A stretch of 64,000 nucleotides of DNA, from contig NZ_PGEX01000001.1 in assembly GCF_002797675.1 (NCBI RefSeq), positions 1,426,001 through 1,490,000 on the forward strand. The letters are read 5' to 3'. Positions 40,991-53,991 of this stretch are shown in pieces. A model generated the notes under the pieces. That model was given only the letters and a program-made list of their open reading frames with translations, ran no database searches and was not told the DNA's origin. How positions within the stretch are numbered: position 1 is the first letter of the stretch; each line of letters opens with the position of its first letter. This DNA is from Hallerella succinigenes. Lineage in GTDB: Bacteria > Fibrobacterota > Fibrobacteria > Fibrobacterales > Fibrobacteraceae. A program made the position numbers and the translations under genes.

Positions 40991-43900
40991 ATGCCAGGTC
41001 TTTTTACGGAAGCGACACGCGTTCAACTGACTGCGATTCAACATTTGGCTCGCATCGGCTATACGTATTTGGGAAAAATTCCGGAGTCTGACGCAACGCC
41101 GGCGATTCCCTACGACCCAGAGACGAACATCCTTGTGGACATTTTTGCGGAGCAGTTCAAGAAGCTGAATCCGGCTGCGACTGTTTCTGCGCAGAGCGTA
41201 CTTTCGGACATTCAGAAGGAACTGGATGACGACGATTTGGGCCAGCAGTTCTACAAGCGCTTGACTAGCTATTCTCCACTTCGCCTGGTCGATTTTGAAC
41301 ACCCGGAAAACAACACGTACCATTGCACGGCGGAATTCACTTGCAAGAACGGCGATGAAAGCTTCCGCCCCGACATTACGTTGTTCATCAACGGGCTCCC
41401 GCTCGTGTTTATCGAGGTTAAGAAGCCGAATAACGTAGGCGGCATGGTGGCCGAAAGCAAGCGGATGAACGATGAGCGGTTCCCGAAGAAAAAGTTCCGC
41501 CGCTTTATCAACATCACGCAGTTGATGATTTTCTCCAACAACATGGAGTACGATGCCAAGGGCGGTGTTGTTCCGATTGAAGGCGTGTTCTATTGCACGG
41601 CAGCGAAAAACGAAGCGCGTTTCAACTGCTTCAGGGAAGAGAACCCCAAGCGTGCGGCAATCGCGCCGTTCCACGCCAATTATCCTTATTTGCCGATTCC
41701 TGCGGATCTCGAAAAGAGAGTCCTGATGGATTTCAATGTTCCGGTCTTGAAAGAGAATCCGGAATACAAAACGAATCTAGACATCAACACGCCCACGAAC
41801 CGCGTGCTTACTTCGATGGTGAGCCCGGAGCGTTTGCTCTTTTTGCTCAAGTATGGCATCGCTTACTTGCATGTTGAAAAGGAGAAGGACGGCCAAATCG
41901 AGAGCCGCCACGAAAAACACATCATGCGTTACCAGCAATTTTTTGCGGCCATGATTATCCGTGAAAAACTGGCAGCGGGGGCGACATCCGGCATTGTATG
42001 GCATACGCAGGGTTCGGGCAAGACGGCGCTTTCTTTCCACTTGAGCAAAGTCCTCAAGGACTATTACGCCAAGCAGAACAAAGTCGCGAAATTCTACTTT
42101 ATTGTGGACCGTCTGGATTTGCTGGAGCAGGCGACCGAAGAATTGAGCAATCGCGGCCTCAAGGTGACAACGGCAAATTCCCGCACGGAACTCATGGAGC
42201 AGTTCCGCACGCAGCAGGCCTTGCAGGGCAACGCCGGTGTCGATGAAATTACTGTGGTGAATATCCAGAAGTTTGAAAATGACACCGAGAAAGTGGAAAT
42301 CCCGAATTACGCCACGAATTTGCAACGCGTGTTCATTATGGACGAAGCGCATCGTGGTTACAAGCCGGGCGGATGCTTCCTTTCGAACCTTTTCAATGCC
42401 GACAAGAATGCCATCAAGATTGCACTTACCGGCACACCGCTCATCGGGAGTGAAAAGGCGAGCTGCAAGGTCTTTGGCGATTACTTCCACACGTATTATT
42501 ACGACCGTTCCATTCAAGACGGCTACACGTTAAAGATTATCCGCGAAGATATCGAAACCAGTTACCGCAAAAAGCTGAACGATGCTTACGAAAGCGTGCA
42601 GAAACTGGTGGAGAAGGGTTCTGTCTCGAAGGACATGATTATTCGGCACCCCACATACGTGAAGGCGCTGCTCCGCTACATCATCAATGATTTGGCGAAG
42701 TTCCGTGCCATGCAGGGCGACAACGACCTTGGCGGCATGATTATTGCAGAATCTTCGGAACAGGCGCGAAACTTGTACAAGTTCTTCAACGAGATTCAGG
42801 ACGAACTCAATGAAAACCGCATCCAGAAAATTAACTTGAAAGCGGGATTGATTCTCTTCGATAGCGACGACAAGGAAACCCGCAAGCAGATTATCAACGA
42901 TTTCAAGAAGAATTACACGATTGATGTTCTGATTGTCTTCAACATGTTGCTGACGGGCTTTGACGCACCGCGCCTTAAGCGTTTGTATTTCGGTCGCAAA
43001 ATCGAAGATCATAATTTGTTGCAGGCAATTACACGCGTGAATCGCCCGTACAAGAATATGAAACGCGGATTCCTGATTGACTTTGCCGACATCAAGAAAA
43101 ATTTCGACGAGACCAATGCCGCGTATTTGCAGGAATTGAACCGCTACAACGATGCCGATACTGACTCAGACGATAACTTGCCCGACATGTACAATCAAGT
43201 CATGGAAGACAAGGAAGCCCTTATCAATCACATGAAGGTGGCACGTCAGGCTCTGTTCAGTTACACCACCGACAACGCGGAAGTTTTCTCTACGGAGATT
43301 TCTAGCCTTGAAGACAAGAAGGTTTTGATTGAACTGCGCAAGGCGTTGGAACTCGCCAAGGACGCGTTGAACCTTGTGCGTACTTTCGGTGACGACGCCC
43401 TTAAAAAGGACTTTGAAAAGCTGAACATCGAAAAGTTGCCGCTTATGCTTTCGGAAGTGAACCACCGCATTGCGATGATTAACCAGAAAGAGGCATGGAC
43501 CAATAGCGAAGTGACTCAGTTTGCAGTGAACGAAGCCATGATGAACATCGAGTTCAACTTTAGCTGCATTGGCACGGAAGAACTGAAAATCATCGACAAT
43601 GGTACGGAACTGCGAGAAAAATACAAGCGCGCACTTCGCGGATTCCTGGATAACTTCGATCACGAAGACCCTGTATTTGTTGAACTAGAACAGGAGTTCA
43701 AGCGCATCTTTGACAAGCATGGCTTTACCCCGGAAAATCTTGCCGTTTATAACGAGCAGAACCAGGCGATGAACGACATCCTGAAACGCCTCGAAGATCT
43801 TCGCAAATCAAACGACGCCCTTTTGCGCAAGTACAACGGCGACACGAAATTTGCCTACGTTCACAAGCGCATCCGCGAAGAGAACAAGGCCCGCGAACCC

Positions 43901-44167
43901 AAGCACCAGGCACCGATTATCTCGAAGTTTGACGAAGAAATCGTGCAGGCGCTCTTGACCATCAAGGGAACGATTGACGCGAAGGTTTTCGACCGCAACG
44001 ACATTCTGAAGCAGGACGCCTACTTCGGCAAAACCGTGATGAAAGAAATTGCAGATGGGCTCGCGCAATTCCCGCAAATCAAGCCCGAAATGCCCGATTA
44101 CCTGTTTATCCAGCAGCGCATCGCCAAGCAGTATATAAACCAGTATAACGCCTATTATGGAAATTAG
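40991..44167 (+). CDS. hsdR: Type I restriction enzyme R subunit
   Basis: A 1,058-residue motor and nuclease of a type I restriction complex. The N-terminal PD-(D/E)XK nuclease shows RPDITLF near residue 127 and IEVKKPNN near 140. The helicase core follows, with Walker A TQGSGKTALS near 339, Walker B IMDEAHRG near 449, LTGTPLI near 479 and the late helicase motif DVLIVFNMLLTGFDAPRL near 643. The C-terminal helical region contacts the modification subunits. Its partners are hsdM (46,092) and hsdS (50,843), separated here by other genes rather than adjacent. ATG 40,991 is used. The 5' flank has a 200-base gap with no strong ribosome-binding site. Confidence 0.95.
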   Translation: MPGLFTEATRVQLTAIQHLARIGYTYLGKIPESDATPAIPYDPETNILVDIFAEQFKKLNPAATVSAQSVLSDIQKELDDDDLGQQFYKRLTSYSPLRLVDFEHPENNTYHCTAEFTCKNGDESFRPDITLFINGLPLVFIEVKKPNNVGGMVAESKRMNDERFPKKKFRRFINITQLMIFSNNMEYDAKGGVVPIEGVFYCTAAKNEARFNCFREENPKRAAIAPFHANYPYLPIPADLEKRVLMDFNVPVLKENPEYKTNLDINTPTNRVLTSMVSPERLLFLLKYGIAYLHVEKEKDGQIESRHEKHIMRYQQFFAAMIIREKLAAGATSGIVWHTQGSGKTALSFHLSKVLKDYYAKQNKVAKFYFIVDRLDLLEQATEELSNRGLKVTTANSRTELMEQFRTQQALQGNAGVDEITVVNIQKFENDTEKVEIPNYATNLQRVFIMDEAHRGYKPGGCFLSNLFNADKNAIKIALTGTPLIGSEKASCKVFGDYFHTYYYDRSIQDGYTLKIIREDIETSYRKKLNDAYESVQKLVEKGSVSKDMIIRHPTYVKALLRYIINDLAKFRAMQGDNDLGGMIIAESSEQARNLYKFFNEIQDELNENRIQKINLKAGLILFDSDDKETRKQIINDFKKNYTIDVLIVFNMLLTGFDAPRLKRLYFGRKIEDHNLLQAITRVNRPYKNMKRGFLIDFADIKKNFDETNAAYLQELNRYNDADTDSDDNLPDMYNQVMEDKEALINHMKVARQALFSYTTDNAEVFSTEISSLEDKKVLIELRKALELAKDALNLVRTFGDDALKKDFEKLNIEKLPLMLSEVNHRIAMINQKEAWTNSEVTQFAVNEAMMNIEFNFSCIGTEELKIIDNGTELREKYKRALRGFLDNFDHEDPVFVELEQEFKRIFDKHGFTPENLAVYNEQNQAMNDILKRLEDLRKSNDALLRKYNGDTKFAYVHKRIREENKAREPKHQAPIISKFDEEIVQALLTIKGTIDAKVFDRNDILKQDAYFGKTVMKEIADGLAQFPQIKPEMPDYLFIQQRIAKQYINQYNAYYGN

Positions 44168-44185: not shown

Positions 44186-44649
44186 GCCACACGGATTCGA
44201 TTTTCCTAACGGAAAATCAAGGAAAATGTATGATAATTAACGAGAAAGAAACGGGAAATATAATAAAGGCTTGTTTTGAAGTCCATAATGAATTAGGTCA
44301 TGGATTTCTTGAAGCCGTATATCAAGAAGCGTTGGAAGAAGAATTTAAATTGCAAGGCATCCCGTATGAGAGAGAAAAACTGCTCCCTGTATTTTACAAA
44401 GGAAAAGCTCTTAAGAAAGAGTATTATGCGGATTTCATCTGCTATGATAAAATAATTGTTGAATTAAAATCTGTGAGTGTTTTGTCTAAGCCACATAAGG
44501 CTCAGGTGCTAAATTATTTGAATGCAGCAAAAAAGGATATCGGATTGTTGGTAAATTTTGGTGAAACATCGTTAAAATGGGAAAGGATAACGAATTTTAA
44601 AAAGGAAAATTAATCAGGAAAATCGTTAGATTTTCCAAATCCGTGTGGC
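44186..44649 (+). mobile_element. GxxExxY cassette with hairpin terminal repeats, copy 1
   Basis: A 464-bp unit bounded by inverted ends GCCACACGGATT (44,186) and its complement ending at 44,649. Inside each end is a hairpin with a four-base loop: GATTTTCC-TAAC-GGAAAATC on the left and GGAAAATC-GTTA-GATTTTCC on the right. The single gene inside (44,230-44,613) takes its ribosome-binding site (AAGGA) from the left end. A second copy is at 50,349-50,813 and a solo end at 48,786. No target duplication is visible. Mobility is inferred from the repeated, bounded structure. Confidence 0.65.
44230..44613 (+). CDS. GxxExxY-family protein, PD-(D/E)XK nuclease-like, copy 1
   Basis: A 127-residue protein of the GxxExxY family. 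The name motif appears as GFLEAVY near residue 24. A restriction-endonuclease-like active-site pattern follows: YYADFICYDK near 64 supplies the Asp, and IIVELKS near 76 supplies ExK. Members are widespread and often multi-copy, and their function is not established. The start follows AAGGAAAATGT. The gene sits between hsdR and an AlbA-type gene, inside hairpin-bearing inverted repeats. Copy 2 (50,393-50,776) differs by four residues, while the DNA has many more, mostly silent, differences, suggesting that the protein is under selection. Confidence 0.82.
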   Translation: MIINEKETGNIIKACFEVHNELGHGFLEAVYQEALEEEFKLQGIPYEREKLLPVFYKGKALKKEYYADFICYDKIIVELKSVSVLSKPHKAQVLNYLNAAKKDIGLLVNFGETSLKWERITNFKKEN

Positions 44650-44668
44650 CAAAAGAAAGGATTTAAAG

Positions 44669-46087
44669 ATGACGATAGATGAAATCAAGCAGGGGGAATC
44701 CGACACCCTTGAATTCAAAAGAGAGATGCCTTCGAAAGACTCGAAGCTTTTGAAAACTATTGTCGCCTTTTCTAACGGCAGGGGCGGTCGGATTGTATTT
44801 GGTGTTGACAACAGAACGCTTGACATTGTTGGAATTGAAGCCAGCAAAGTTTTTAAGTTTATGGACGGTCTTGCGAACATGATTAGCGATGCAATTTATC
44901 CGCAGGTTAATCCGCGTATCACGTTTGAAACCATAGATGACAAGACCATTGTAATCGCTGATATTTTGCCCGGTCAAAACCAGCCGTATTGCCTTAAAGC
45001 CGAAGGTAGCCTTGATGGTGTATATATCCGCGTGGCCGCTACCACAAGAAAAGCAGAACGGGAGAAAATAAGGGAACTGGTTCTTTTAGGCGAAGGGAAA
45101 TCATACGACAAGCTTTTCGAAAGGCATGCCCCCGCGAGTGAACAGGCTATAAAGAATCTTTGCAAAGTCATCGAGCAGTATAGCCATAAACGCTTTGTTC
45201 GGCTTGAAAACATGCTTGGATGGGGACTCCTTAAAGAGGAAAGTGGCAAATTATTTCCCTCTATTGCCTTTAGGCTGTTGGCTGAAAACGACCTGCATTT
45301 TGCCCGTATCCAGTGCGGACTTTTCAAGGGAACTGACAAAGTATATTTTCTCGACCGCAAGGAATTTGACGGCCCGCTTAACGAACAAATCGATAACGCT
45401 TACAACTTTATTTTGCAGCATATAAACATCGGTGCCGAAATTAAGGGTTTGTATCGCAAAGATGTCCCGGAAATTCCCACTGAAGTAATTCGTGAACTCA
45501 TCGTAAATGCTGTGATGCACAGAAATTATCTGGCTCATTCGAATATTCAGGTTTGCATTTTTGACGATCGTATCGAAATTACGAATCCGGGCGGTCTTTA
45601 TGGCGGATTGACCCTTGAAAAGATGCTGTCGGGAATTTCGAGCATCCGAAACGAACTGATTGCCGATATTTTCTTGAAGATGGGAATCGTTGAAAAATGG
45701 GGGACTGGAGTAAAGCGAGTCAGGGAACTCTGCAAGGAAAATGGCTTGGCCGATGTTGAATATTCTGCGGATGAAGACTTCTTTACCGTTGTAATTCGCA
45801 GACGCAAAAAGTTCCCCAAAAGTTCCCCGAAAGTTCCCCGAAAGTTCCCCGAAAGAATTCACCCAAAAAGTTCCCCAGAACTCCCCGAAACACTATCCGA
45901 AGGGGCTGTGAAAACATTTAAGGAATTAAAAAAGAATCCCAGTGCGTCTTCTACAGAAATCGGCAAAATTATTGGCCTTACTTCAAGGGCCGTGAAGAAA
46001 CATTTCGCGATTCTTAAGGAACACGGCTTAATTGAGTATGTTGGCAGCCAGAAGGGCGGCCACTGGATTATAAAGGATGGTAAATAA
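44669..46087 (+). CDS. AlbA_2/Schlafen-domain ATP-binding protein with winged helix
   Basis: A 472-residue protein. The N-terminal AlbA_2 (Schlafen-like) domain contains DTLEFKREM and TIVAFSNGRGGRIVFGVDN. A central GHKL-type ATP-binding domain has the N-box RELIVNAVMHRNY near residue 276 and WGTGVKRVRELC near 344. A C-terminal winged helix (ASSTEIGKIIGLTSRAVKKH) is near 430. The linker between the last two is built from a four-unit 11-bp tandem repeat (45,807-45,851) that is read in all three phases. ATG 44,669 follows AAAGGATTTAAAG. It is embedded in the type I restriction locus, and its end overlaps the hsdM start region. A regulatory or defence role is likely. Confidence 0.8.
   Translation: MTIDEIKQGESDTLEFKREMPSKDSKLLKTIVAFSNGRGGRIVFGVDNRTLDIVGIEASKVFKFMDGLANMISDAIYPQVNPRITFETIDDKTIVIADILPGQNQPYCLKAEGSLDGVYIRVAATTRKAEREKIRELVLLGEGKSYDKLFERHAPASEQAIKNLCKVIEQYSHKRFVRLENMLGWGLLKEESGKLFPSIAFRLLAENDLHFARIQCGLFKGTDKVYFLDRKEFDGPLNEQIDNAYNFILQHINIGAEIKGLYRKDVPEIPTEVIRELIVNAVMHRNYLAHSNIQVCIFDDRIEITNPGGLYGGLTLEKMLSGISSIRNELIADIFLKMGIVEKWGTGVKRVRELCKENGLADVEYSADEDFFTVVIRRRKKFPKSSPKVPRKFPERIHPKSSPELPETLSEGAVKTFKELKKNPSASSTEIGKIIGLTSRAVKKHFAILKEHGLIEYVGSQKGGHWIIKDGK
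45807..45851 (+). repeat. 11-bp tandem repeat in coding sequence
   Basis: AAAGTTCCCCG-type units place GTTCCCC at 45,811, 45,822, 45,833 and 45,844, exactly 11 bp apart. A diverged unit follows at about 45,870. Because 11 is not a multiple of three, gain or loss of one unit shifts the frame and leads to a stop within about 70 codons, removing the winged helix. Confidence 0.85.
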
Positions 46088-46091
46088 TACC

Positions 46092-47744
46092 ATGAACATC
46101 AAAGACAAGACCATTGCCCTTATCGACTCCCTCAAGGCCACTTGCCAAACGTATGGCATGGGCAATGACGGCAACGAATACAAGATTATCACCCAGGTGT
46201 TTTTGTATAAGTTTATGGCCGACAAGTTCGGCTACGAACTCAAGAAAATCAATGACCCTTGTTTGAAGGCCCTCAAAAAATCTGACAAGTGGGAAGAGGA
46301 ATACGCGAAACTCTCCAAGGCCGACCGCGAAAAGGTGAGCCTCTTCTTGCCGCCCGAAGTCCCGGTGTTCAAGCCCGACTACCTGATTGCAAACCTCTGG
46401 AACAAGCAGGCCAAGGGCGATTTCGACGTCATCTTTGACGAGACCATGGTCGCCATCGCGAAGGACAACCTGGACGTATTCTACACCAAGACCGCGCAAG
46501 AAACGAAAATTCCCATCTTCGAAAAGCTCACCATCTTTGTGACCGACGACGCCCAGCGTGCAAACTTCGCCCGCGCCCTTGTCGATAAACTCGTGAACTT
46601 CAGCTTCGAAGACGCCTTTGCCGAACATTACGACTTTTTCTCGGACATCTTTGAATACCTGCTCAAGGACTACAACACCGCAGGCGGCGGCAAGTACGCC
46701 GAATATTACACCCCCAAGGCCATCGCGAAAATCATGGCCCGCCTCTTGGTGGGCGATGGCGCCGACCTGCACAACGTAGAATGCTACGACCCCAGCGCAG
46801 GCACCGGCACCTTGCTCATGGCGCTCAGCCATCAGATTGGCGAAGACCGCTGCACCATCTTTGCGCAAGACATCTCGCAGCGCAGTAACAAGATGCTCAA
46901 GCTGAACCTGCTGCTGAACGGACTCGTTTCGAGCCTCGATCACGCCGTGCAGGGCGACACCCTCCTGGAACCCTACCACAAGAGCGACGACGGCAAGAGC
47001 CTCAAGCAGTTCGATTACGTGGTGAGCAATCCGCCCTTCAAGATGGATTTCAGCGACACACGCGACGACATCGAAAAGAAATGGAATGCCCGTTTTTGGG
47101 CTGGCGTGCCTAAAGTCCCGAACAAGAAAAAGGAGAGCATGGCTATCTACACCTGCTTTATCCAGCACGTGGTAAACAGCATCAAGGCAGGCGGCAAGGG
47201 CGCCATCGTAATCCCCACCGGGTTCATCACCGCGAAATCCGGCATCGAGCACAAAATCCTCGAACGCATCGTTGACGAACACATCGTCTATGGCGTGGTC
47301 AGCATGCCGAGCAACGTATTCGCGAACACCGGCACCAACGTGAGCGTGCTCTTCTTCGACAAGACCCGCAAAAAGACCGACAACGACAAAGTCACACTCG
47401 TTGACGCAAGCAAACTCGGCAAGGAATACAAGGACGCGAACGGCCTCAAGAAAGTCCGCCTCGAAGATGACGAAATCGAGAAAATCGTGACCACCTTCCG
47501 CAGGGCCAAAGCCGTCGAAGACTTCAGCGTAGTCGTGACCTACAGCGAAGTCAAGGAAAAAGGCTACAGCCTGAGCGCCGGCCAGTATTTCGACATCAAG
47601 ATAGACTACGTGGATATCACCGAGGACGAATTCAACGCCCAGATGAAAGCCGACACCGAAGAACTCGCCGCCATGTTCGCCGAAAGCCACAAACTCGAAA
47701 AGGAAATCCAGAAACAGTTGAGCAACCTGAAATTTGTAAAGTAA
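46092..47744 (+). CDS. hsdM: Type I restriction-modification M subunit (adenine-N6 methyltransferase)
   Basis: A 550-residue DNA methyltransferase. A helical N-terminal HsdM domain (about residues 1-150) precedes the catalytic domain. The SAM-binding motif is DPSAGTGTLL near residue 233 and the catalytic motif is NPPF near 314. With HsdS it methylates the recognition site and with HsdR it forms the restriction complex. ATG 46,092 gives the usual MNIKDKTIALIDSL opening. ATG 46,077 in the same frame is an alternative that would overlap the upstream stop and lies too close to any ribosome-binding site. Base composition is GC-richer than the AT-rich genes later in the island. Confidence 0.93.
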   Translation: MNIKDKTIALIDSLKATCQTYGMGNDGNEYKIITQVFLYKFMADKFGYELKKINDPCLKALKKSDKWEEEYAKLSKADREKVSLFLPPEVPVFKPDYLIANLWNKQAKGDFDVIFDETMVAIAKDNLDVFYTKTAQETKIPIFEKLTIFVTDDAQRANFARALVDKLVNFSFEDAFAEHYDFFSDIFEYLLKDYNTAGGGKYAEYYTPKAIAKIMARLLVGDGADLHNVECYDPSAGTGTLLMALSHQIGEDRCTIFAQDISQRSNKMLKLNLLLNGLVSSLDHAVQGDTLLEPYHKSDDGKSLKQFDYVVSNPPFKMDFSDTRDDIEKKWNARFWAGVPKVPNKKKESMAIYTCFIQHVVNSIKAGGKGAIVIPTGFITAKSGIEHKILERIVDEHIVYGVVSMPSNVFANTGTNVSVLFFDKTRKKTDNDKVTLVDASKLGKEYKDANGLKKVRLEDDEIEKIVTTFRRAKAVEDFSVVVTYSEVKEKGYSLSAGQYFDIKIDYVDITEDEFNAQMKADTEELAAMFAESHKLEKEIQKQLSNLKFVK

Positions 47745-48873: not shown

Positions 48874-48906
48874 TAAGTGAATGTTTAATTAAAGATGGGA
48901 ATAAAT

Positions 48907-50322
48907 ATGAGTTTGGAAAAAGAAATCAAACTGGGTGAAAGCCGGACCTTGGAGTTCAAACAGGAACTCCCTAGGGAATCCCACAAGTGGCTGAAGACAA
49001 TCGTCGCCTTTGCAAATGGTGCCGGTGGCAGGTTTGTTGTAGGCGTCAATGATGAACGACAGGTTGTCGGCCTGCCCGCCCATGCGGACATTTTTAAACT
49101 CAAGGACTCAATCGCAGATGCCATTGCTCAGGCCTGCAACCCGCAAATTGTATTCGACATCTATCAGGAATCGGTAAATGACCGCGTTGTCTTGGTAGCG
49201 GAAGTTTTTCCTGGTAATAGCACGCCTTATTATCTCAAAAAACTTGGTATTGAAAGCGGGACATTTATTCGCCTTGGAGCCACGACCCGATTGGCCGATG
49301 CCAACACGCTGTTTGAACTGAATTTAAAGAAACAGCGCCGCTATTATGATGAACTCCCTCGTGCAGAACTGAAAGTATCCAGAAGGGATGTGCAGCGACT
49401 GTGCCGGAATTTTGAAAGTCATAGCGGAAAAAGGATTCCCAAGGATTTTCTTTTCAATACGGGCCTACTCCGTGAAGACGGCGGGTCTTTGGTTGCCACT
49501 AATGCCTATGCGATTTTTGCAGGAATCCCTGATTTCTTTTGCAAGATTCAATGTGCTCGTTTCCGCGGAAAGGACCGGGTTGAATTTTTAGACAAGAAGG
49601 ACTTTGAAGGCCCCTTGCTGGATCAAGTTGACGGAGCGTTTAAGTTTGTACAAACTTATCTCAAGACGATTGTCAAGTTTGAAGGACTTTACCGTCGGGA
49701 ATCTTGCGAATTGCCGGAGAAGGCTTTGCGTGAACTAATCTTAAATGCGGTTATCCACCGCAATTACATGATGAGTTCCTGCGTGCAAGTCGCGGTTTAC
49801 GATGACCGCGTGGAGATTTCGTCACCTGGGGCCTTGTATGGAACGCTGACTCTGGAAGAGGCTCTTTCTGGACGGTCTTCTATTCGGAATAAACTCCTGG
49901 CATCGGTCTGCGAAAAACTGGGCGTGGTCGAAGGTTGGGGAACTGGACTCAAAAAGATTATTGATACTTGCAAGGAACTCAAGATCCGACCGCCCGAATT
50001 CCTTGAAATCGGTGATTTGCTTAGGGTCAACTTTTATAGGGCAAAAATGAGTGACCCTAATAATGACACAATAAATGACACAATAAATGACACAATAAAT
50101 GATACAATAAATGACACAATAAAAACGACCAAATCGGAATCAAAGGTTTTAAAGCAGATTGAAAAAAATAATGAAATTACACGTGAACAATTGGTTGCAA
50201 ATACAAACCTTTCTGATAGTACCGTTGCCAGGGCACTCAAAACTTTGCAGGAAAAAGGAATTATTGAACGAGAAGGAAGCAAGAAAATAGGCTTTTGGAA
50301 AATTCTCAATCAAGGAAAATAG
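48907..50322 (+). CDS. AlbA_2/Schlafen-domain ATP-binding protein with winged helix, second copy
   Basis: A 471-residue protein with the same architecture as the gene at 44,669. The AlbA_2 domain holds RTLEFKQEL and TIVAFANGAGGRFVVGVND. The GHKL-like domain has RELILNAVIHRNY near residue 278 and WGTGLKKIIDTC near 344. The C-terminal winged helix (ITREQLVANTNLSDSTVARAL) is near 425. The two proteins are clearly paralogous but diverged throughout. The linker before the winged helix is five NDTI units from a 12-bp tandem repeat, so copy-number change would alter linker length but not phase. ATG 48,907 is preferred over 48,895. GxxExxY cassette 2 begins 27 bases after the stop. Confidence 0.8.
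   Translation: MSLEKEIKLGESRTLEFKQELPRESHKWLKTIVAFANGAGGRFVVGVNDERQVVGLPAHADIFKLKDSIADAIAQACNPQIVFDIYQESVNDRVVLVAEVFPGNSTPYYLKKLGIESGTFIRLGATTRLADANTLFELNLKKQRRYYDELPRAELKVSRRDVQRLCRNFESHSGKRIPKDFLFNTGLLREDGGSLVATNAYAIFAGIPDFFCKIQCARFRGKDRVEFLDKKDFEGPLLDQVDGAFKFVQTYLKTIVKFEGLYRRESCELPEKALRELILNAVIHRNYMMSSCVQVAVYDDRVEISSPGALYGTLTLEEALSGRSSIRNKLLASVCEKLGVVEGWGTGLKKIIDTCKELKIRPPEFLEIGDLLRVNFYRAKMSDPNNDTINDTINDTINDTINDTIKTTKSESKVLKQIEKNNEITREQLVANTNLSDSTVARALKTLQEKGIIEREGSKKIGFWKILNQGK
50062..50121 (+). repeat. 12-bp tandem repeat in coding sequence
   Basis: Five units of AATGACACAATA (the fourth has one change) encode five NDTI tetrapeptides. They are at the same domain junction as the 11-bp repeat in the paralogous gene. 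Confidence 0.9.
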
Positions 50323-50348: not shown

Positions 50349-50813
50349 GCCACACGGATTCGATTTTCCTAACGGAAAATCAAGGAATATGTATGATAAT
50401 TAACGAAAACGAAACGGGAAATATAATAAAGGCTTGTTTTGAAGTCCATAATGAATTAGGTCATGGATTCCTTGAAGCCGTGTATCAAGAAGCCTTGGAA
50501 GAAGAGTTTAAAATGCAAGGTATCCCGTATGAGAGAGAAAAACTGCTCCCTGTATTTTATAAGGGAAAACCGCTGAAGAAAGAATACTATGCGGATTTCA
50601 TCTGTTATGACAAAATAATCGTTGAACTAAAATCAGTGAGTGTATTGTCGAAACCGCACAAAGCTCAAGTATTGAATTATTTGAACGCTGCAAAAAAAGA
50701 TGTTGGATTGTTGGTGAACTTTGGGGAAACCTCGTTAAAATGGGAACGTATAACGAATTTCAAAAAGGAAAATTAACCAAGAAATTGCGTTAGCAATTTC
50801 GAATCCGTGTGGC
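50349..50813 (+). mobile_element. GxxExxY cassette with hairpin terminal repeats, copy 2
   Basis: A 465-bp unit with ends GCCACACGGATTCGATTTTC (50,349) and the complement ending at 50,813. The left hairpin equals copy 1. The right hairpin is GAAATTGC-GTTA-GCAATTTC: the stem sequence differs from copy 1 but pairing and loop are kept. It lies between the second AlbA-type gene and hsdS and breaks neither. Confidence 0.65.
50393..50776 (+). CDS. GxxExxY-family protein, PD-(D/E)XK nuclease-like, copy 2
   Basis: A 127-residue near-copy of the protein at 44,230. Differences are Lys to Asn near residue 6, Leu to Met near 39, Ala to Pro near 56 and Ile to Val near 105. The GFLEAVY motif and the Asp...ExK active-site pattern are unchanged. 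The DNA shows numerous third-position changes. The ribosome-binding site again comes from the cassette end (AAGGA). The right inverted repeat ends 30 bases before the hsdS start, so hsdS may be transcribed through the cassette. Confidence 0.82.
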   Translation: MIINENETGNIIKACFEVHNELGHGFLEAVYQEALEEEFKMQGIPYEREKLLPVFYKGKPLKKEYYADFICYDKIIVELKSVSVLSKPHKAQVLNYLNAAKKDVGLLVNFGETSLKWERITNFKKEN

Positions 50814-50842
50814 AATAAAAAAGAATCTTGGTGAACTTGAAT

Positions 50843-52144
50843 ATGGAATTGAAAGAGTATAAATTAGGTGATTTGATTGAAGTGACTCGTGGCATGAGTT
50901 TGCCTGGGGAGTTCTATTCTACAGAAGGCGAATACATTCGCTTGACATGTGGAAACTTCGACTATGTGAATAATTCCTTTAAGGAAAATAAATCAAAAGA
51001 CGATTTATATTATGTTGGAAAGATAAAGCCTGAATTTATAATGGAAAAGGGTGATATTATTACTCCGTTGACCGAACAGGCTATTGGATTGCTTGGATCT
51101 ACGGCGATTATCCCTGAAAGCGGTAAGTATATTCAGAGCCAGGATGTGGCAAAGGTTACTTGCAAAAAAGGAATGATTGACCATGATTTTGCGTATTATT
51201 TAATTCCTTCTAAATGCGTAAAGGAACAACTTAGTGCTGCCGCTCAGCAAACAAAAATTCGTCATACATCTCCAGATGCGATAAAGGCATGCAAAGTATT
51301 TGTTCCTCCATTATCAGAGCAAAAGAAAATCGCTGCTGTTCTTTCCGCATTAGACGACAAAATCGCCCTGAACAAAAAAATGAACCAGAAACTTGAAGCA
51401 ATGGCAAAACGCCTATACGACTACTGGTTCGTCCAATACGACTTCCCCGACAAAAACGGCCTCCCCTACAAAACCACCGGCGGACCCATGACCTACAACC
51501 CAACCCTCAAACGCGAAATCCCTGTGGGTTGGGAAGTGGTTCGCTTGGGAGATTTGTTTAAGACTAATCGTGGCGTTTCTTATAGCACTCCGACATTAGG
51601 TGCTGAAGGCGACGGCGTTCCCATGATAAATTTGGCATCGTTTTCTCCTAATGAATCCTATAATGAAAAGGGGATCAAATACTATAAAGGCGAATATACC
51701 GATGAAAAGGTGCTGAAACCATTTGATTTTGTCATGTGTAATACCCAGCAAACGGCAATAGATCCGCAAAAGGATATTATCGGTAGGTCTATGCTTGTGC
51801 CTGATATCTTTGATGGCGACATTGTATCTTCACACCACGTCAATACAATCAAACTTGAAAAAGAAAATTTAAAATTTTATTTGAATAGACTTTTCAATAC
51901 AAAGTTCTATCATGCGTATATTTCCAAGTTCGCCAACGGCACTAATATCTTGGGACTAATATTCTCTGGTGTTGAAGATTACATGTGCGAAATTCCTTCA
52001 GATGACTTGTTAGAAAAATTTGCAAAAATTTCTTTGGATATTGAAAAGAAAAAATCTAAGATTATCAAAGAAAATCAAAAACTCACCGCCCTCCGCGACA
52101 AACTCCTTCCGCTCCTCATGAACGGCCAAGTTGTGGTAGAGTAA
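50843..52144 (+). CDS. hsdS: Type I restriction specificity subunit
   Basis: A 433-residue protein with two target-recognition domains, each preceded by a typical opening (YKLGDLIEVTRGMSLPGEF near residue 5, WEVVRLGDLFKTNRGVSY near 232). They are separated by conserved helical spacers (SEQKKIAAVLSALDDKIALN near 158, and a matching C-terminal helix ending LRDKLLPLLMNGQV). It determines the bipartite DNA site for methylation and cleavage. The ATG at 50,843 is chosen; a TTG frame start at 50,828 lies upstream. The recognition domains are AT-richer than the spacers, the usual sign of domain exchange. Confidence 0.93.
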   Translation: MELKEYKLGDLIEVTRGMSLPGEFYSTEGEYIRLTCGNFDYVNNSFKENKSKDDLYYVGKIKPEFIMEKGDIITPLTEQAIGLLGSTAIIPESGKYIQSQDVAKVTCKKGMIDHDFAYYLIPSKCVKEQLSAAAQQTKIRHTSPDAIKACKVFVPPLSEQKKIAAVLSALDDKIALNKKMNQKLEAMAKRLYDYWFVQYDFPDKNGLPYKTTGGPMTYNPTLKREIPVGWEVVRLGDLFKTNRGVSYSTPTLGAEGDGVPMINLASFSPNESYNEKGIKYYKGEYTDEKVLKPFDFVMCNTQQTAIDPQKDIIGRSMLVPDIFDGDIVSSHHVNTIKLEKENLKFYLNRLFNTKFYHAYISKFANGTNILGLIFSGVEDYMCEIPSDDLLEKFAKISLDIEKKKSKIIKENQKLTALRDKLLPLLMNGQVVVE

Positions 52145-52202: not shown

Positions 52203-53366
52203 ATGTCGATTATTGATAATACTGCCATTGGAAGCTGGTCAGGCTTCGTATATCAAGGTTTATGTGCATTATATCATTGCTTAAGACTTATAGAGTCAAC
52301 TTCAGGCGGAATATGCCCTGATTATTTTTTGAACCTTGATTCATTTGAGGATTTTTCCATACTTGATGCAAATGATGATATTGTCAGTATGCATCAATGT
52401 AAAAATGAAAAAAAAATAAAGAATTATACTGATGAATTCAATAAAATGGTGGATAAGAAAAATGCATCCCCTAAAGCAATTCATGCAATCTTATATTTTC
52501 ATACAAATAAAAATGTTAACGTAAATAGTCCAATTATTGCATATCAGTTTACGTCGACAGCAACTTTTTGTACGTCAAAAGATTTAATTCAATTAATAGA
52601 GGCTTTAGTAAAAAAGTTAGCTTGTTGCGATGAAGCTACATGTCAAAAAAAATCAGCATCTTTGTACAAGTTGATTGATGATAGGGTTCTGCAAATACAT
52701 CAAATGTCATTTGGACTTGATTATCCATTGAGAGATGTTGCAAGAAGAGATCGGATTCCTTTGCAAGATATTTATGAAATTGTGCACAGAGAAGAAAAAA
52801 TAATTTTACTTGATAAAAGTAGTATTGTTCAATATGCGAGAATTTGGTTGATTAACGATTTGCTTGAATTCTTGCAATTTGAAGAAGATGATATTTTAGA
52901 AAAGAAAATCAATGAGACTGTCACTAATATTCAACGCTTTGATGATGATTCTTTTTTTGATTTTTTAACTCGACTTCATCCTAGACAGAATTTTAATCAA
53001 CGAGATGTTCGCTTGTTAGCAAATATCATTAATGAGGATACAAATTCGAGTGTTTATGAAGTTGTTTCCAAAACTCCAAAATTAAATGATGAATTAAACT
53101 GGATTTCTCCAAAAAAAGAAACTCCTGCAGCATTTTCGCGATCAATGCGCCCAGAACTCATTTGCAGTAAAATCTATGAAAATGCGCCAAATTTAAACGT
53201 CTTATATGAATATGATTGGCTTGTTGGAGACATCCAAAAAACAGTTCAAGATGTATGTAATCAGTATAGCATTTTTAATTATGTGCAAAAAAATGAAAGC
53301 AATATTTTTCATCAGAAAAAGGTTGGTCTTTTAAGCATCGAGGATAAAATTAATGGAAACTATTAA
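52203..53366 (+). CDS. Probable ABC-3C effector with PD-(D/E)XK-like N-terminus
   Basis: A 387-residue protein. The opening IGSWSGFVYQGLCALYHCLRL and the later FEDFSILDANDDIVSMHQCKN show the helix, acidic strand and QxK arrangement of Cap4/DUF4297-like endonucleases. The C-terminal two-thirds are helical with no motif I recognise, as in the C-terminal parts of ABC-three-component effectors. It is followed by a middle-component-like protein (overlap 14 bases) and a Rad50-like ATPase. That order is the known layout of ABC-3C defence systems. Base composition is markedly AT-rich compared with the restriction genes before it, suggesting a separate origin. Confidence 0.65.
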   Translation: MSIIDNTAIGSWSGFVYQGLCALYHCLRLIESTSGGICPDYFLNLDSFEDFSILDANDDIVSMHQCKNEKKIKNYTDEFNKMVDKKNASPKAIHAILYFHTNKNVNVNSPIIAYQFTSTATFCTSKDLIQLIEALVKKLACCDEATCQKKSASLYKLIDDRVLQIHQMSFGLDYPLRDVARRDRIPLQDIYEIVHREEKIILLDKSSIVQYARIWLINDLLEFLQFEEDDILEKKINETVTNIQRFDDDSFFDFLTRLHPRQNFNQRDVRLLANIINEDTNSSVYEVVSKTPKLNDELNWISPKKETPAAFSRSMRPELICSKIYENAPNLNVLYEYDWLVGDIQKTVQDVCNQYSIFNYVQKNESNIFHQKKVGLLSIEDKINGNY

Positions 53367-53991
53367 ATCGTACATTGAAAAAATATTCAAGAGATATGGA
53401 TATAAAACTCTGATAGCTAAGGATGAGTATTTAATATTATCAGGCCTAAATAATAATGATTTTTGGATTGTAACACATTCTTTTGATGTCAACAATCAGG
53501 ATCTTTTTTTTAAGATTTGTGAAAAAGAAATCGAAGAAAAACGTTATGAAGCTTTTGAAAAAAATGTATCACTATTATATTTAAATGAGGTTGATTCAAT
53601 TACAACAGAAATTCGGAATGAATCTGTAAAAATAGAAAATAATCCCTTTTATTTCAAAAAATATGTTTTACTTTATGAAAAAAGTGCTTGGGATGATTTG
53701 GCTACAAAGATATCAGATGATATAAACACCTGTCTTTTAAATCCCCTATATTTTGATGAATTGAAAACAGATAATTGCAGCCCATTTTCTCTGCTATATG
53801 AAATAGCTCATAAACTTCCTTTTTTTAAAATACAAGTCGAAAGTTCTGAAAATATTGAGGTGGAAAAGAATTTTTCCACAAGCAACGAACAAATAAATGA
53901 TACGTATAAATGGTTGACTTCGTTAAAAAACGACAAAGACACAATTGAACATTGCATTGAAAAAGAATTGGAGGCAATTTCCAATGATTAA
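53353..53991 (+). CDS. Probable ABC-3C middle component
   Basis: A 212-residue AT-rich protein between the nuclease-like gene and the Rad50-like ATPase, overlapping both (14 bases and 8 bases). It has no enzymatic motif. Size, position, and the mixed alpha/beta look with aromatic-rich strands (DEYLILSGLNNNDFWIVTHSF) fit the middle-component-1 type of ABC-three-component systems. The assignment depends mainly on context. Confidence 0.6.
   Translation: METIKSYIEKIFKRYGYKTLIAKDEYLILSGLNNNDFWIVTHSFDVNNQDLFFKICEKEIEEKRYEAFEKNVSLLYLNEVDSITTEIRNESVKIENNPFYFKKYVLLYEKSAWDDLATKISDDINTCLLNPLYFDELKTDNCSPFSLLYEIAHKLPFFKIQVESSENIEVEKNFSTSNEQINDTYKWLTSLKNDKDTIEHCIEKELEAISND

Follow-up and report, generated by a model that had tools for sequence, protein, structure and literature searches.

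A tandem repeat array in a defence-locus gene of Hallerella succinigenes very probably represents a row of binding sites for the winged helix-turn-helix (wHTH) domain encoded directly behind it; these predicted sites would sit in the DNA coding for the interdomain linker of the same protein. This reading was reached by sequence comparison within the gene family. We showed computationally that the arrays are a feature of those family members that possess a wHTH, and that the repeat unit covaries with two parts of this domain, recognition helix and wing, and not with the enzyme domains.

The array was found in the window, i.e. the whole 64-kb stretch of DNA analysed, at positions 45807..45877 (+) (TRF: 45807-45877, period 11, 6.1 copies, score 85). 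Its unit can be written as (C)GAAAGTTCCCC / AAAAGTTCCCC. Five exact matches to AAAGTTCCCC occur in the 64-kb window, all of them inside one 70-bp stretch; with at most one mismatch allowed, 11 matches were counted vs. 5.3 expected. The original prediction had listed four GTTCCCC blocks, and these were indeed present at 45811, 45822, 45833, and 45844, with a spacing of exactly 11 bp. The repeat is longer than was then recognized: four perfect 11-bp units (45808-45851) are followed by one degenerate unit and a fifth perfect core at 45867-45876, which had been overlooked. The placement of the repeat between the ATP-binding and winged-helix domains was correct, since it lies between HATPase_c_4 (residues 299-384) and HTH_24 (residues 426-464). 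The same unit is translated as F-P, S-S-P, or V-P, depending on the frame. All three frames are open across the array, as had been claimed, and frame reading places early stops behind it, namely a TGA closing one shifted frame (45909..45911, +) and a TAA closing the other (45919..45921, +). The number of 11-bp units therefore sets the reading frame of the following sequence.

The window gene (44645..46087, +) encodes a 480-aa protein with the Pfam architecture SLFN_AlbA_2 - HATPase_c_4 - wHTH. The SLFN_AlbA_2 domain (PF04326; residues 18-137; 44696..45055, +), a Schlafen-type putative RNase or nucleic-acid-binding domain, scored 81.4 bits against a gathering cut-off of 25.3, and HATPase_c_4 (PF13749; 45539..45796, +) scored 95 bits against a cut-off of 26. 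The C-terminal wHTH, comprising about residues 416-480 (45890..46084, +), was recognized by HTH_24 (22.6 bits; cut-off 21.9) and by the wHTH fold of the AlphaFold model. The latter has helices at residues 419-430, 436-443, and 447-459 plus a wing; pLDDT is 84-88 through residue 460 and drops to about 70 after it, and residues 390-410 form a low-confidence linker. Alignment mapping assigned the recognition helix to residues 447-459 (SRAVKKHFAILKE; 45983..46021, +). Of the family alignment columns, the one tied most strongly to the array unit by column z corresponds to K452 in this helix (codon 45998-46000, +), and the second-strongest to G471 in the wing (codon 46055-46057, +).

The gene is flanked by a PDDEXK_3 gene and hsdM and is part of a type I RM locus with the order hsdR, PDDEXK_3, window gene, hsdM, AbiD/Abi_2, a paralog of the window gene, a second PDDEXK_3, hsdS, and two ABC-3C components. 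The restriction subunit gene hsdR (40991..44167, +) was identified by HSDR_N, ResIII, and SWI2_SNF2; hsdM (46077..47744, +) by N6_Mtase (227 bits); and hsdS (50828..52144, +) by Methylase_S. Translation of hsdM starts at 46077 or 46092, and the gene thus overlaps or abuts the 3' end of the window gene. The paralog (48895..50322, +) has the same Pfam domains but another wHTH, with the recognition helix SDSTVARALKTLQE. A repeat search located its own array at 50062..50123 (+), made up of five copies of the 12-bp unit AATGACACAATA and encoding NDTI repeats; a unit different from that of the window gene is expected here because the recognition helices differ. The two PDDEXK_3 genes (44230-44613 and 50393-50776) are 97% identical (123/127 residues), and each adjoins a Schlafen/HATPase/wHTH gene, with one copy on each side of hsdM. 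PDDEXK_3 and regulator are a duplicated module, whose two regulators differ in wHTH and array. Also, directly 3' of hsdS (52203-53991) is an ABC-three-component pair consisting of CTD1, which resembles LmuA, and MComp1.

The original prediction treated the array as a feature of a single gene and missed that most family members possess one. Our survey included 231 distinct HATPase_c_4 genes, mostly from Fibrobacterota. Tandem arrays were detected in 184 of these genes. The linker held 163 of them, 12 straddled the stop codon or came after it (some of these in genes with a frame shift or at a contig end), and 9 lay elsewhere in the tail. Among the 195 genes with an intact wHTH, 173 contained an array and 22 had no detectable one, vs. 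0/16 genes ending after the HATPase domain (Fisher p 5e-14). The commonest period is 12 bp, periods of 10, 11, and 21-42 bp are also present, and unit sequences are many and different. Linker or stop-codon arrays also occur in relatives from Campylobacterota, Bacteroidota, Rhodothermota, Spirochaetota, and Pseudomonadota. Viral contigs, which were searched widely, yielded almost nothing.

Several arrays deserve separate mention. Those of 11 bp (or about 10 bp) that straddle the stop codon or lie directly behind it were seen in L105, L112, L132, L139, L147, L156, L011, L012, L302, and L304, and many of the wHTHs in this group (L105, L112, etc.) have a recognition helix of the T-A-x-x-[DEY]-L type. 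The gene L301, with a 12-bp array, belongs to a BREX locus on an Azotobacter plasmid, where it is flanked by brxC and pglX. In two assemblies, runs of N fall inside the arrays (L068 and L198), and for this reason arrays may be under-reported or collapsed in draft assemblies. Strict helical phasing was considered as well, as periods of 10-12, 21-24, 30-33, and 42 bp stood out at first. This pattern is partly shared by the remaining tandem repeats of these loci, so strict phasing was rejected and the periods argue only weakly for a binding array: near-helical ones are only moderately commoner in the arrays (174/198) than in those repeats (80/121).

The relationship between unit and protein was analysed in all pairs of 174 genes, with unit similarity taken as the best match of 10 bases. 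Unit similarity follows the identity of the wHTH and not that of the Schlafen and HATPase part. Where the enzyme parts are >70% but the wHTHs <30% identical, the unit was shared in 0/34 pairs; where the enzyme parts are <30% and the wHTHs 50-70% identical, it was shared in 41% of pairs. Matches to the reverse complement of the unit stayed at background level, so the array has a fixed orientation with respect to the gene. When single alignment columns were analysed, the unit was associated most strongly with one position midway along the recognition helix (z 12.0) and with one position of the wing (z 11.5).

For Mantel tests and regression, 99 representatives with wHTHs <60% identical were used. 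Correlations with unit similarity were low for the N-terminus (0.03, reached in 116/1000 permutations), helix 1 (0.08), and helix 2 (0.09), and higher for the recognition helix (0.24, reached in 0/1000) and the wing (0.21, 0/1000). These permutations ignore phylogeny, which is partly replaced by the controls, i.e. helices 1 and 2, the N-terminus, and flanking DNA. In a joint regression, two terms were retained, recognition helix (z 6.0) and wing (z 3.4); the N-terminal enzyme domains had a z of 0.2, and helices 1 and 2 dropped out. The link to the recognition helix holds with other cut-offs, with 8-mers, in 12-bp arrays alone, and in random halves of the data; that to the wing is weaker in the smallest sets.

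These data bear on the view that the repeats arose by neutral expansion of a weakly selected, flexible linker and that the unit follows the wHTH by mere co-inheritance of neighbours. The linker is disordered in the AlphaFold model, repeat number is variable, and 12-bp tandem repeats are common elsewhere in the loci of this family, all of which would fit such an origin. Co-inheritance, however, leaves unexplained that the unit is linked to the recognition helix and the wing rather than to helices 1 and 2, which are encoded nearer to the array. DNA immediately flanking the array lacks such a link: 24-bp stretches upstream, downstream, and at the gene end gave z values of 0.2, -0.8, and 1.5, respectively, with the recognition helix, while gene-end DNA tracks its own encoded C-terminus (z 8.7), as it should. 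Moreover, among pairs with 50-70% wHTH identity, 46% have at least 9 of the 10 unit bases in common, although identity at third codon positions (0.35) is close to background. We therefore regard a neutral origin of the link as very unlikely.

The residue at the key position of the recognition helix, which is K452 in the window protein, goes along with particular unit cores. With R at this position, the core AAAATG was found in 17/34 cases vs. 1/82; with K, AAAAGT in 11/24 vs. 2/92; with D, AATCGG in 4/7 vs. 0/109; and with Y, ACTACC in 4/7 vs. 0/109. In the window protein, K452 is combined with AAAAGTTCCCC in the array. The array of another paralog in the same genome, with 28% identity in the enzyme part and the helix SDRAVRKHIKELKA (vs. 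SRAVKKHFAILKE), consists of 11-bp AGAAAGTTCC units; the paralog next to the window gene is closer to it (43%) but has the SDSTVARALKTLQE helix and the different unit described above. Across phyla, the 12-bp unit TGAGGGAGTAAG is identical in a gene of a gammaproteobacterial plasmid (VERWL) and in the Fibrobacterota gene L231 (IERWI). The single-residue rule holds clearly within Fibrobacterota but is patchy outside this phylum; it fails in L298, L301, L304, and L307, and a cross-phylum nearest-neighbour test gave a modest result overall.

An association of this kind could also arise at the protein level, if the repeat peptide of the linker touched the recognition helix, perhaps in the role of an autoinhibitory pseudo-DNA, and peptide and helix coevolved. 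Array and helix do reside within one polypeptide, and most arrays encode tetrapeptide repeats. Against this, one and the same core gives unrelated peptides: it is read in at least two frames within a single gene in 28/157 linker arrays, and between genes, L144 (KSSE) and L143 (KFVE) combine similar helices and a common core with different frames. Arrays situated 3' of the stop codon in several lineages, which are wholly or partly non-coding, also speak against a peptide function, and we consider coevolution of peptide and helix very improbable. As far as can be judged from sequence, the conserved entity is the DNA and not the peptide, because the core is read in several frames, can follow a stop codon, and once survives without a gene.

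The last case comes from the hsdR-hsdM site of a related genome. In G076 (L200 / L328, contig 145), a bare, non-coding GTTCCCC array lies between hsdR and hsdM and the gene is gone. We rejected this orphan array as proof of a gene-independent function, as nine sister genomes with nearly the same hsdM have hsdR followed directly by hsdM, with no array. Although intact, the G076 array is probably a leftover of gene loss. In two further sister genomes (L322 and L333), the same site is occupied by a Fic-wHTH gene with a 12-bp AAATGTCGTAAT array in its linker and R at the key position of the helix. Additional Fic genes with arrays were found in L037 (linker) and L361 (3' of the stop codon).

The original prediction interpreted the array as a contingency locus, in which slippage by 11 bp toggles the wHTH and which exists for that purpose. 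The sequence features behind this reading are real: the unit is not a multiple of three, every frame is open, and stops follow soon after. A length change of 11 bp would alter the frame and eliminate the wHTH, and a sibling with a 10-bp array (L208) illustrates this, being exactly two units (20 bp) short in comparison with about 99% identical relatives and having its wHTH out of frame. Other frame-off alleles are L185, L194, and L161; all are known from assemblies, partly metagenomes. Array length also varies between close relatives. As an account of why the array exists, however, switching is contradicted by several observations. Sister strains with three or five units had been proposed as a check, but the three genomes compared, which are 2-4% apart, share one copy number: both sister genomes (97.5% and 95.9% identical over the 788 bp before the array) have the spacing 11-11-11-26, as in the window. 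In the F. intestinalis ortholog (80% protein identity), AAAGTTCCCC is kept with spacings of 12-12-12-12-11; gain or loss of its 12-bp units leaves the frame unshifted, and 12-bp units are also the rule in most arrays.

Length steps between close relatives are 12, 21, 24, or 36 bp, and near-identical full-length genes thus differ in a frame-neutral way. Frame-off alleles are not clearly commoner in arrays with non-3n units (2/31, leaving aside L068, whose array is N-masked) than in the others (2/140). A 5'-truncated gene, L010, with mostly 10-bp spacing and out of frame, was examined as a frame-off allele of the window gene and rejected, as its N-terminal half is missing and it represents a remnant. 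Finally, a frame switch predicts no association between unit and recognition helix and leaves the observed one unexplained. A contingency function as the reason for the array is accordingly unlikely. Removal of the wHTH by gain or loss of units is more likely a side effect than a purpose, and switching, which may occur at a low rate in the window gene, is probably a by-product.

If the array is a series of operators for its own wHTH, protomers would be placed side by side on it, at about one site per helical turn. Binding may repress or tune the gene itself or the adjoining defence operon, or it may tether the protein at the locus. A classical promoter operator was rejected: within the 300 bp upstream, a gene's own unit is not enriched (18.3% vs. 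16.8% for unrelated units). As no second operator is found upstream, intragenic autoregulation or tethering is favoured, and as a first guess we give these two about equal weight. Since the sites adjoin the sequence that encodes the DNA-binding domain, the two would move together, and a new wHTH would bring the matching sites with it. Changes in array length would tune the number of sites, and where units are 10 or 11 bp long the same process can put the wHTH out of frame.

The closest counterpart is the Rep protein of plasmid pSK41 (RepA_N). Its wHTH binds four sites that lie centrally in the rep gene itself, within the sequence encoding an interdomain linker, and the chimeric initiator of pPR9 shows a joint swap of DNA-binding domain and origin (PMC5703833). 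As in the internal origin of RepA_N initiators, the proposed tandem sites of the window gene lie in the interdomain-linker DNA of the binding protein itself. In contrast to these replication initiators, in which the wHTH is N-terminal to the sites, the window protein is a Schlafen/HATPase protein of a defence locus with its wHTH on the C-terminal side of the array. Nothing points to a role in replication, and the arrays may also follow the stop codon. The RepA_N domain (PF06970) had no match in the window protein, the gene of which is chromosomal and belongs to the type I RM locus.

A published account treats proteins combining a Schlafen RNase, a minimal histidine kinase, and a wHTH as auxiliary effectors that occur near BREX and related systems (PMC12839542). 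The proteins studied here, whose genes were found next to hsdR and between brxC and pglX, resemble them in domain order and in their defence-island setting. A search of that account for tandem repeats and linkers found neither linker arrays nor a link between array and wHTH (PMC12839542). RdfS, a recombination directionality factor, is an oligomeric wHTH protein on direct repeats (PMC11963761); the wHTHs considered here may line up on their arrays in a similar manner, as iteron binders also do. Simple-sequence contingency loci share with the window array an intra-ORF repeat with a unit that is not a multiple of three; the latter differs from them in its longer unit, few copies, invariance in the sister genomes seen, and 12-bp form in the ortholog. 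In the journal literature searched, we found no description of a site array in the own gene of Schlafen/HATPase/wHTH defence proteins. The domain architecture is already known, and the array-wHTH design has one documented precedent, the RepA_N initiators.

Beyond the window gene, there may be a portable cassette of tandem operators and the wHTH that reads them, common to unrelated defence enzymes (Schlafen/HATPase and, at the same hsdR-hsdM site, Fic) of several phyla, with a recognition code readable from genomes and proteins arranged in rows on their own genes; we give this wider reading an even chance. Schlafen/HATPase/wHTH proteins are widespread in defence islands, and we know of no binding target for any of them. 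To our knowledge, operator and DNA-binding domain inherited as one piece are so far known from plasmid initiators. If our interpretation is true, this one-piece design extends to defence proteins, and the target of any member of the family could be read from its own gene and tested directly. The family would then provide a natural library that pairs recognition helices with DNA sites, and the design would explain why its linkers are built of short repeats with ever-changing sequence.
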